A stretch of DNA of 64,000 nucleotides from Halobacterium noricense (GTDB lineage Archaea; Halobacteriota; Halobacteria; Halobacteriales; Halobacteriaceae), in contig NZ_CP089468.1 of the NCBI RefSeq assembly GCF_021233435.1, positions 310,001 to 374,000 on the forward strand. The letters run 5' to 3'. A model generated the notes under the pieces. That model saw only the letters and a program-made list of their open reading frames with translations, was not told the origin of the DNA and made no database searches. This document shows positions 15,697 through 56,435 of this stretch, in pieces. The position numbers and the translations under genes are program-made. Numbering within the stretch: position 1 is the first letter of the stretch; each line of letters opens with the position of its first letter.

Positions 15697-16887
15697 TTAC
15701 CGGATGACGTCGAGGCCGTTGTTCTTCTCGACTTCTTCCTTACCGCCGTCGGAGTGCGCGCCGAACTCGTTAGTCGTGCCGGCGCCCTCGTCGACGGCGC
15801 GCTGCTTCGCGTCGGCGTCGACGTCCTGGAGCTCCTGCCGGGACTTGTCCGCCTGCTTCTGCGTGCTCGGTCCGAGCACCTGCGCGGACTGCACGCCGGT
15901 CATGATGGCCATGACGCGGACCTTCCCCTTGTAGTTCTCCTGGATGCGGGCGCCCCAGATGACGTTCGCGCTCGCGTCCAGCCGCTCGGTGATGTTGTCC
16001 GCGATGCCCTCGGCCTCTTTCAGCGTGAGGTCCGGGCCACCCGTGATGTGGACGAGGCCACCGCTCGCGCCGCGGTAGTCGACGTCCAGCAGCGGGTGAT
16101 TCATCGCGTCCTTGACCACTTCGTTGGTCTTGTTCTTGTCCTGGGTCTCGCCGACGAGCATCACGGCGACGCCACCCTGATTCATGATGGCGGTCATGTC
16201 GGCGTAGTCGAGGTTGATGAGACTCGGCTGGGTAATCGTCTCGCTGATGCCCTTGACGGTCTCGGCGATGATCTGGTCCATCACGGAGAACGCCTTCCCG
16301 ATCGGGAGGTTGGGCACGTAGTCGAGCAGCCGGTTGTTGTCGAGGACGATGATAGAGTCCGCTTCTTCGCGGAGCTTCTCCAGGCCTTCCTCGGCCTTGA
16401 CCGTACGAGCGCGCTCGACGTTGAACGGCGTCGACACCATGCCAACGACGATTGCGCCCTGCTCTTTGGCGATCTTCGAGACGACGGGTGCAGCACCGGT
16501 GCCGGTCCCACCACCCATGCCGGCGGTCACGAACACGAGGTCCGCGTCGCCGAGCACCTCTTTGATTGTGCCCTGGGCCATCTCGGTGGCGCGCTCGCCC
16601 ATCGAGGGGTCGCCACCCGCGCCGAGGCCGTTCGTCAGGGACTTCCCGACGAGAATCTTCGTGTCGGCCTCGATCATCTTGAGGTGCTGTTTGTCGGTGT
16701 TGATGGCGACCGTGTCGGCGCCTTCGACACCGATGTTGTACAGCCGGTTGACGGTGTTGTTGCCCGCGCCGCCCGCGCCCACGATGACGATTCGCGGGTC
16801 GCCGAACTCGTCGCCGTCGCCGCTGGCGTCCATCTCGCGTTGTTCGGCTTCGGCGTTGTCGAGGGCGTCCTGAACGATGTCCTGCAT
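15697..16887 (-). CDS. ftsZ2: Cell division protein FtsZ2
   Basis: 396 aa tubulin-family GTPase. N-terminal [20 protein letters not shown], nucleotide motifs [13 protein letters not shown] and GGGTGTG at 125-131, and [20 protein letters not shown] match archaeal FtsZ. The C-terminal NNGLDVIR tail and the cdrS neighbour point to FtsZ2, which in Haloferax drives ring constriction. Its start is three bases past the CdrS stop, so the two are co-translated. The acidic linker (330-385) is variable as usual. Confidence 0.95.
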
Positions 16888-16889
16888 CG

Positions 16890-17057
16890 TTACACCTTCG
16901 CCCAGCTGTTCGTGCTGGTCTGTTCGGTTTGTTCGTCTATCATTTCACGGACCGCCGACCGAATCGCCTCGCTGCGATTCGGGAATTTACCCCGTTCGAC
17001 CATCTGTTCGACCTCGTCGATCTGCTGTTTCGGAATGCGGAGTGTCACACGCTCCAT
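16890..17057 (-). CDS. cdrS: CdrS, short ribbon-helix-helix cell-division regulator
   Basis: 55 aa: [19 protein letters not shown], then [19 protein letters not shown], a complete ribbon-helix-helix DNA-binding fold. Located directly upstream of ftsZ2 in one operon. In Halobacterium salinarum and Haloferax, CdrS is a global regulator that controls ftsZ2 and cell division. The gene region upstream carries several GTAAGAC/GTCTTAC operator-like sites that it or CdrL may bind. Confidence 0.9.
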
Positions 17058-17077
17058 ATTTTTGTATCCCCGTTGTG

Positions 17078-17236
17078 GTAAGACGGCATTTGATTCGGTC
17101 TGTGTCTTACAGAATCGTTTGGCAGGTCATAATCCCGCGCTGTCGTGCGATTCTGTGTAAGACAACCGTCTTACGTACCACTACCCACACCGTCACAACG
17201 TATATAATTAACGGCGGATGTAAACGATTGTCTTAC
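17078..17236. promoter_or_regulatory. Array of GTAAGAC/GTCTTAC operator-like sites
   Basis: Five copies in the cdrL-cdrS gap: GTAAGAC 17078-17084, GTCTTAC 17104-17110, GTAAGAC 17157-17163, GTCTTAC 17168-17174 and GTCTTAC 17230-17236. The third and fourth form a perfect inverted repeat with a four-base spacer; the last overlaps the cdrL stop. Best candidates for binding by a ribbon-helix-helix regulator. Confidence 0.6.
17201..17210 (-). promoter_or_regulatory. Candidate TATA box for cdrS-ftsZ2
   Basis: TATATAATTA (TAATTATATA on the minus strand) lies 144 bases upstream of the cdrS start, predicting transcription from about 17175-17180, inside the GTAAGAC inverted repeat. Weaker AT-rich boxes closer to cdrS (near 17090) are alternatives. 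Confidence 0.45.
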
Positions 17237-17751
17237 CGGGCGAACGCGTCCGCCGACGCAGTCCGCCGCCCGCAGTGCGGACAGAACGACCAGTCCGCTC
17301 GCACCTCGTCGCCGCACTCGCAGAACACGCGGTGGGTCGCCTTCTCCCCGCAGTTCGGACAGAACACGTGGTCGTCGGACAGCGACTCCCCGCACTGCGC
17401 GCAGCTCTGCTCGTGGCCGCGGTCCGCTGCCCGCCCGCGATCCTCGCCGCGTGCCGGTTCGCGACGCGGTGCACGCTGGTCGTCGCGCCGCGGCTCCGCG
17501 CGCAGTCCGTCGGCGGTATCGACCGTAATTCGTACGTTTACGTCGTGTTCGCGGGTTCGTGGGCCGAGTCGCCGCTCGACGAGTTCGTCGACGCGCTCGG
17601 CGACGACGTCGTCGATGCTGTCGTCCGCGTCGGCCGCCTCGCCGTCGAGGTACGCCCGCAGCGCCGCGCGCATGACCTCGCTCTTGGACTCGTCGAGGTC
17701 GTCGACGGCGTCCACAAGGTCGTCGTCCGCGCGGAAGGTGATCTTCGACAT
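17233..17751 (-). CDS. cdrL: CdrL, ribbon-helix-helix plus double zinc ribbon regulator
   Basis: 172 aa. Residues 1-40 (MSKITFRADDDLVDAVDDL, KSEVMRAALRAYL) are a ribbon-helix-helix domain. A charged linker follows, then two zinc ribbons: CAQCGESLSDDHVFCPNCG and CECGDEVRADWSFCPHCG. This architecture and place next to cdrS-ftsZ2 match CdrL of haloarchaea. A near-palindrome (17760-17775) lies between a probable TATA and the start, suggesting autoregulation. Confidence 0.85.
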   Translation of the reverse strand: MSKITFRADDDLVDAVDDLDESKSEVMRAALRAYLDGEAADADDSIDDVVAERVDELVERRLGPRTREHDVNVRITVDTADGLRAEPRRDDQRAPRREPARGEDRGRAADRGHEQSCAQCGESLSDDHVFCPNCGEKATHRVFCECGDEVRADWSFCPHCGRRTASADAFAR

Positions 17752-17759
17752 ACCCGTTC

Positions 17760-17775
17760 GGTAGTACGTACCACC
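17760..17775 (-). promoter_or_regulatory. Palindromic operator upstream of cdrL
   Basis: GGTAGTACGTACCACC is nearly self-complementary around GTAC. It sits nine bases before the cdrL ATG, downstream of a weak AT-rich box near 17780-17790, the right place to block transcription. CdrL itself is the obvious candidate ligand. Confidence 0.45.
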
Positions 17776-17799
17776 GCCGGGAACTTCAAACTAGGTAGT

Positions 17800-18070
17800 G
17801 AGGTGGATTCCCCGCCCCACCGTGGGCGGGGAGGAAGCCGACACTCGCTGCCTTAGCCATATATTGAAGTGAATGGCATCCCAACTTAGTGGTACGTGAT
17901 GGGAGGCCAACAGTTGTCGCGGTCACGGGCTGCCGTCAACCGGCCCTGTAGTCAAGGATGCCGACTCGTGAACGCCCGAAAGCCCTTCGGGTACGACGCG
18001 GCGAGTCCACTGACAAGTCTCGCACCACCGTGCGCGGGGTAGTTGACCCCATCCCACGCGTCTGATGCTC
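17800..18070 (+). mobile_element. IS200/IS605 (TnpB-type) terminal remnant
   Basis: Starts with ATTCCCCGCCC and GGGCGGGGAGGAAGCC (eight-base stem 17810-17817 with 17824-17831), a hairpin typical of haloarchaeal tnpB 3' ends. A second tnpB-tail-like segment near 17970-18050 reads VNARKPFGYDAASPLTSLAP and ends GGGGTAGTTGAC. No transposase ORF survives. Sits between cdrL and tRNA-Tyr. Confidence 0.4.
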
Positions 18071-18129
18071 GTCGTCCGTTTCCGAATGGTAACCCTTAAA
18101 TCCGAACCACGGCGTACGCAAGAGTGCAT

Positions 18130-18203
18130 CCGCCCTTAGCTCAGACTGGTAGAGCAGTCGACTGTAGATCGACTTGCCCCCCGTTCAAATCGGGGAGGGC
18201 GGA
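18130..18203 (+). tRNA. tRNA-Tyr (GTA anticodon)
   Basis: Acceptor CCGCCCT pairs with AGGGCGG, followed by discriminator A. D arm GCTCAGACTGGTAGAGC, anticodon arm GTCGA-CTGTAGA-TCGAC with anticodon GTA, T arm CCCCG-TTCAAAT-CGGGG. The C1-G72 pair is the archaeal tRNA-Tyr identity element. No intron. A box A-like CTTAAATC lies about 35 bases upstream. Confidence 0.95.
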
Positions 18204-18303
18204 TTTGCTTTTCCGCGAACCAAACGGTGAGCGGGCCGCACGTCCAACCGACTTTCTCCCCGGTCAATTCGTGGCCGTTTACGCGACATTAGATGTGGTC
18301 GCG

Positions 18304-56348: not shown

Positions 56349-56435
56349 GCTGGCAAACGTGGCTGGTGTCGCTGACACCGGCCAGTTGCCGCCGTAAGAC
56401 GAACCCTTTAGTGCGTCAGCGGCGACTCGGCGTGT

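Follow-up and report, generated by a model that had tools for sequence, protein, structure and literature searches.

A candidate operator array for ribbon-helix-helix proteins, nearly invariant across Halobacteria, at the cdrS-ftsZ2 division-operon promoter

The timing of division in archaea is poorly known. The closest described system is the CdrL region of Halobacterium salinarum (Darnell et al. 2020; PMC7439475), where, according to the main text, ChIP-seq of CdrL gave one reproducible site, resolved at the level of the region, upstream of cdrS-ftsZ2; the array of short boxes described here lies at the same place before the same operon. The word "motif" does not occur in that main text (figures and supplements lie outside this statement), relative to which the boxes, their geometry, their class-wide single copy and their persistence without detected CdrL are new. 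Likewise, no entry among the papers listed for CdrL, CdrS, ftsZ2 and the box words pointed to the motif, figures and supplements again being outside the scope. For Haloferax volcanii, Table 1 of Liao et al. 2021 (PMC8406309) gives 18 ChIP-seq sites of CdrS, including the ftsZ1, dacZ, hisB and threonine ammonia-lyase genes, and the cdrS promoter is absent from these 18; as proposed for the array, a ribbon-helix-helix (RHH) reader and a symmetric motif are involved. In the legend to Fig. 2 of the same paper, a TATA box, a start site and a 5' UTR are marked for Haloferax cdrS.

Three other systems resemble the array in part. The NikR operator of Escherichia coli nikABCDE, read by an RHH family protein, has the arms GTATGA/TCATAC, which resemble the array variants GTATGAC/GTCATAC (PMC7055735, as far as consulted); however, its arms are 16 bp apart and its binding is nickel dependent, whereas the array has a spacer of 2-6, mostly 4 bp, plus extra boxes. 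The resemblance between CdrS and NikR is weak (NF002815 below cut-off; PDB 1q5v, E 0.0028). The heptads to which the RHH protein ParB (omega) of pSM19035 binds are, like the array boxes, 7 bp long and found in both orientations (PMC9499535, consulted in part), but they are contiguous and the array boxes are spaced. In Saccharolobus, the RHH repressor aCcr1 controls the archaeal division gene cdvA (PMC12796447 and PMC7617429, both consulted in part); the division machinery differs from that of cdrS-ftsZ2, and the likeness is drawn at the level of the regulator.

We analysed a window of 64,000 nucleotides from Halobacterium noricense (contig NZ_CP089468.1, positions 310,001 to 374,000); all coordinates below are those of the window. 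The minus strand carries cdrL (17233-17751; with an RHH_1 domain over residues 4-36 and a double zinc ribbon over 117-161), cdrS (16890-17057; a 55-aa RHH regulator, NCBIfam NF058555 and Pfam RHH_1 above cut-off) and ftsZ2 (15697-16887; TIGR00065 above cut-off), so that candidate RHH-domain readers, with RHH_1 above cut-off in both CdrL and CdrS, are encoded beside the array. Five exact copies of GTAAGAC/GTCTTAC lie within 159 bp (17078-17236; Poisson P ~9e-13, about 1e-12), all designated by their minus-strand reading: the outer box F1 (GTAAGAC, 17230-17236) upstream of the TATA element, the core boxes F2 (GTAAGAC, 17168-17174) and R2 (GTCTTAC, 17157-17163), 11 bp apart centre to centre, and the leader boxes F3 (GTAAGAC, 17104-17110) and R3 (GTCTTAC, 17078-17084), the last directly before a ribosome-site-like GGGGAT (17066-17071, minus strand) that is followed by the cdrS ATG. 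The preliminary description had placed five boxes between the two genes; all five are exact, but F1 overlaps the cdrL stop codon, and the array is thus not purely intergenic. Coding constraint was rejected as the cause of the core, which is intergenic, the outermost box alone touching the stop. Since shuffled versions of the window give 3.9 +/- 2.1 box copies in all, the signal is the clustering of five in 159 bp; the one remaining GTAAGAC of the window is a lone copy (56394-56400, plus strand) at chance level. The perfect inverted repeat with a four-base spacer described earlier is present at 17157-17174, and a motif search of the 3.3-Mb genome, as had been suggested, gave this core as the sole match at 0 or 1 mismatch; two mismatches were found at four other places, the reversed control giving 2. 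A chance origin of the cluster is ruled out by the Poisson P, the genome counts and the reversed control.

The core pattern GTAAGAC-N2-6-GTCTTAC was found in 286 of 292 Halobacteria genomes (reversed control, 4), with one copy in each positive genome except G240, which has two. Five of the six genomes without the exact core have a variant core at the same place, with one box altered (GTGAGAC in G018; GTCATAC in G124 and G174; GTATGAC in G014; ATCTTAC in G286), and the sixth (G230) is an assembly without the cdrS-ftsZ2 locus. The array is nearly invariant and one-per-genome across Halobacteria. In a sample of the phylum the core was present in 51 of 53 Halobacteria and in 3 of 241 other genomes, the reversed control matching 17 of those 241; non-Halobacteria thus have the core at no more than chance level, and no cdrS-like gene was found, by the search pattern applied, within 2 kb of the three out-of-class matches. 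In L248 and L250, both outside the class, the chance-level core matches are followed after 9 and 27 nt by small genes that, judged by eye, resemble AbrB-type regulators.

Named haloarchaeal loci were taken as the best 80 of 365 found with FtsZ2 as query; with L077 left out on account of its too short contig, the exact core lies upstream of cdrS in 78 of the 79 loci with readable cdrS, and in the window in addition. The remaining locus, that of H. salinarum (L038), retains the array but for a single base change, GTGAGAC replacing one core box. For the further loci from the genome survey, the core ends 95-117 nt before the CdrS start in 30/30 among the matches listed. All 125 collected cdrS upstream regions comprise 121 with the core, starting 92-135 nt before cdrS, and four with one-box core variants; the 118 distinct regions hold 505 box copies, versus 0.6 predicted from the cdrS-ftsZ2 coding sequence. 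The preliminary description had named absence of the motif from close relatives as the finding that would speak against it; upstream of cdrS-ftsZ2 in the relatives the motif is present.

The layout was compared over 114 regions, namely the 118 distinct ones minus those with variant cores (L118, L119, L120 and L123). Counted from the first base of F2 (17174) on the minus strand, F1 begins at -62, R2 at +11, F3 at +64 and R3 at +90; the TATA element TTAATTATATA (17201-17211, minus strand), matched across the 114 aligned regions by a T/A-rich block equally far from F2, occupies -37 to -27. The predicted transcription start (17176, minus strand; -2) is the purine of a pyrimidine-purine step at -3 and -2 that is kept in 111/114 regions, and it sits about where, we assume, an archaeal promoter with this TATA would initiate. 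The TATA element and the step would therefore place the core near the beginning of the cdrS-ftsZ2 transcript, at roughly +3 to +20. Centre spacing of F2 and R2 was 11 bp in 86 regions, 12 in 20, 9 in 6 and 10 in 2. Exact boxes were counted for F1 in 56 of the 114 regions, R1 in 20, F3 in 80 and R3 in 106, and an exact F1 or R1 in 75. GTNNNAC words were found at -61 to -66 in 59 regions, F1 being mostly 61-65 bp upstream, and at -51 to -53 in 65, the latter versus ~4.5 expected from the background rate (GTCTTAC, 20; GTCATAC, 14; GTTTTAC, 13; GTATGAC, 10; few others). The distance between R1 and F2 is 51-53 bp and that between R2 and F3 is 52-57 bp; from the distances of F1, R1 and F3, the boxes thus repeat on both sides of the core at a distance of five to six helical turns.

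The boxes outside the inverted repeat had been described as three further half-sites. The variants GTCATAC, GTATGAC and GTTTTAC at the outer slot keep GTNNNAC, in either orientation, and the box variants of the outer slot and the core together mostly keep GT and AC while the middle changes; ATCTTAC in the core of G286 breaks the pattern. Because the variants mostly keep GTNNNAC in either orientation, each 7-mer is probably a whole box with twofold symmetry, one for each RHH dimer, and the single boxes are better read as full sites than as half-sites. Short symmetric sub-sites at helical spacing, as expected of an RHH operator (CopG/MetJ/Arc), are present.

A sister motif, GTCWGAC-N4-GTCWGAC, was found in 45 of the 59 genomes of Halobacteria scanned for it, which hold between 0 and 7 pairs each (control 0/59). 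Family models, run on the gene after the pair in 10 of 30 fetched loci, gave FtsZ in L158 and L180, DacZ in L175, HisB in L171, threonine ammonia-lyase in L186 and other families in L161 and L169, and no match in L164, L177 and L182; the genes after the pair in L157, L160 and L176 begin with the FtsZ1 N-terminus. Upstream of ftsZ1 in ten loci, a GTCWGAC-type pair was seen in four (L124, L125, L126 and L132), single GTCTGAC boxes in three (L129, L130 and L131) and degenerate pairs in two (L127 and L128), the start in L133 being unreliable. No pair was seen upstream of dacZ in ten chosen genomes; open reading frame starts in this set were unreliable, and the dacZ support is thus that of L175. 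These neighbours support, and do not prove, that the pairs are read by CdrS, since not every site has a known CdrS target beside it; our interpretation is that GTCWGAC pairs are the sites read by CdrS, the box at the cdrS promoter being related to them but of its own type. The two motifs are alike in box and pair geometry (two 7-bp GTNNNAC boxes, a 4-bp spacer and 11-bp spacing), a comparison made with the pair as derived here; they differ in the centre (CWG versus AAG/CTT) and in number (0 to 7 exact pairs versus one core per genome). The core boxes were accordingly rejected as CdrS sites of the ChIP type. In the window no GTCWGAC pair occurs at up to 1 mismatch, the core centres being GTAAGAC/GTCTTAC, and the window's own genome has no copy; its ftsZ1 region (L127) has a degenerate pair. 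This is in line with ftsZ1 being CdrS-independent in H. salinarum (PMC7439475, discussion), and the degenerate Halobacterium pair may explain why CdrS targets ftsZ1 in Haloferax but ftsZ1 is CdrS-independent in H. salinarum. The degenerate form in the two Halobacterium loci is GTGCGAC-N4-GTCCGAC; several other haloarchaea have GTCWGAC boxes there. As a separate observation, a first clade set of 25 loci (L015, L017, L018 and others) carries GTCTGAC between F3 and R3 in 24, and GTCTAAC in L056, so that the cdrS leader of these loci holds one lone box of the CdrS type.

CdrL is described in the literature, as far as consulted, as encoded in all sequenced Halobacteria. A profile search detected it in 281 of 292 genomes; contrary to the described universality, it was undetected in 11 (G001, G002, G007, G026, G093, G136, G138, G183, G230, G261 and G282), with 11 candidates scored per genome, so that single misses are possible outside the exhaustively scored genomes, and 10 of the 11 keep the operator core. 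When all candidates of G002, G533 and G534 were compared with the full-length CdrL profile, only partial hits were obtained (E 5.9e-5 or worse; positive controls 2.6e-69 or better), mostly over the zinc-ribbon part, and an RHH-only profile gave at best 7.7e-4 in these three, compared with 2.5e-23 or better in five genomes that carry CdrL. The organisms of G261 and G282 are probably also those of G533 and G534, given identical upstream sequences. Within 1.7 kb upstream of cdrS in the CdrL-less genomes, no CdrL signature was found except one short, chance-like match in L236; L006, for which no CdrL was found, was counted neither way, its contig ending 194 nt before cdrS. The ten genomes with cdrS and without detected CdrL belong to seven genera, and the exact core and R3 are kept in 10/10. 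The conservation of the core is independent of CdrL; CdrL alone therefore cannot explain it, and another reader is needed.

The second reader is most simply, and probably, CdrS itself, because its gene is found at every core examined and the protein has the same fold and the same box geometry at its targets. Against CdrS stands that none of the 18 published Haloferax ChIP-seq sites (PMC8406309, Table 1) lies at cdrS. Moreover, with core centres of GTAAGAC instead of GTCWGAC, a second specificity would be required of CdrS, and in an H. salinarum cdrS deletion ftsZ2 is not activated (PMC7439475, discussion), which counts against simple self-repression by CdrS. With somewhat more confidence than doubt, we regard the boxes as a candidate operator array for the RHH proteins of the division locus, bound by CdrL and probably by CdrS. 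At each 7-bp box (consensus GTMWKAC), a single RHH dimer would contact the major groove with its beta ribbon; dimers on F2/R2, at about +3 to +20, would block RNA polymerase, and the outer and leader boxes would allow several dimers to cooperate around the TATA box. CdrL would act in the promoter region that it is published to occupy in H. salinarum, and CdrS at its own promoter would exert negative feedback on the cdrS-ftsZ2 operon. A core spacer that ranges from 2 to 6 bases is unusual for two rigidly paired dimers and counts against this model, as does the structured leader (see below), since a role in DNA alone does not need leader structure. The earlier proposal of a site for CdrS, CdrL or another RHH factor gains from the CdrL ChIP peak, the conservation and the CdrS-target-like geometry; of its candidates, CdrL by itself does not account for the core in genomes without detected CdrL. 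Under the operator reading, two box types would serve two RHH regulators of one locus, and an exact, single-copy, class-wide target at the division-operon promoter is open to direct reporter and base-change tests.

Two narrower assignments of the reader were weighed against this operator model. It is unlikely that CdrL is the sole reader and the array its private operator: the CdrL peak lies solely at this region in H. salinarum (PMC7439475, main text), which matches one core per genome, CdrL is present in most genomes, and its beta strand with the putative DNA contacts K3, T5 and R7 is nearly invariant (identical in 74/74 aligned orthologues), but an operator of CdrL only predicts loss of the array with CdrL, and the ten CdrL-less genomes retain core and R3. 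This retention irrespective of CdrL would suit an unrelated universal haloarchaeal factor on the core, with CdrL binding the accessory boxes only, as would the scarcity of exact accessory boxes in the CdrL-less genomes (outer box, 1/10 versus 75/111 other regions; F3, 1/10 versus 80/111). We consider this improbable, however, because both exact boxes are likewise missing from 17/17 CdrL-bearing loci of three genera within one family, and no candidate factor was found. A link between loss of CdrL and loss of the outer and F3 boxes is not claimed, the pattern largely tracking relationship.

A further alternative places the function in RNA, the boxes being mainly pairing arms (F2 with R3, R2 with F3) in a folded 5' leader through which translation or stability would be controlled. 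The leader segment from R2 to F3 (17111-17156, minus strand) has hairpin potential, its counterparts being more stable than shuffles (mean z -2.21 for 79 sequences versus -0.40 to +0.26 for four control windows); clade-wise folds gave nested F2:R3 and R2:F3 in 5/5 sets, with some compensated flanks, and ftsZ2 mRNA and ribosome occupancy are described as diverging in H. salinarum (PMC8303175, consulted in part). Against this, the outer box lies upstream of the TATA element, four of the five core variants break F2:R2 pairing and three of those four keep GTNNNAC, the sense strand is more stable than the antisense in just 20/32 diverse leaders, and Rfam has no match in the leader; in 16850-17800 an Rfam scan gave two matches far below the gathering score, each on the opposite strand within cdrL. 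A permutation test of flank complementarity was confounded and dropped as proof, since a control pair scored similarly (p 0.0015). Alignment gave no support for a conserved RNA, no column covariation being found across the 32 diverse leaders. A mainly RNA function of the boxes is in our judgement quite improbable, and the operator reading is preferred, to which the leader may add an RNA role. It is a speculative and quite unlikely extension that the 7-bp word has two uses, one in DNA, as the operator of the RHH proteins CdrL/CdrS at the start site, and one after transcription, in the F2:R3 and R2:F3 helices of a leader RNA setting FtsZ2 translation; if true, this double use would couple the transcription of the division tubulin to its translation through the same boxes.

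Upstream of cdrL, the window carries a tRNA-Tyr gene (anticodon GTA; 18129-18204, plus strand). Beside it lies a GC-rich inverted repeat, GGATTCCCCGCCC...GGGCGGGGAGGAAGCC (17800-17860), which had no match in Rfam and which we presume to recall the ends of IS605-type elements.
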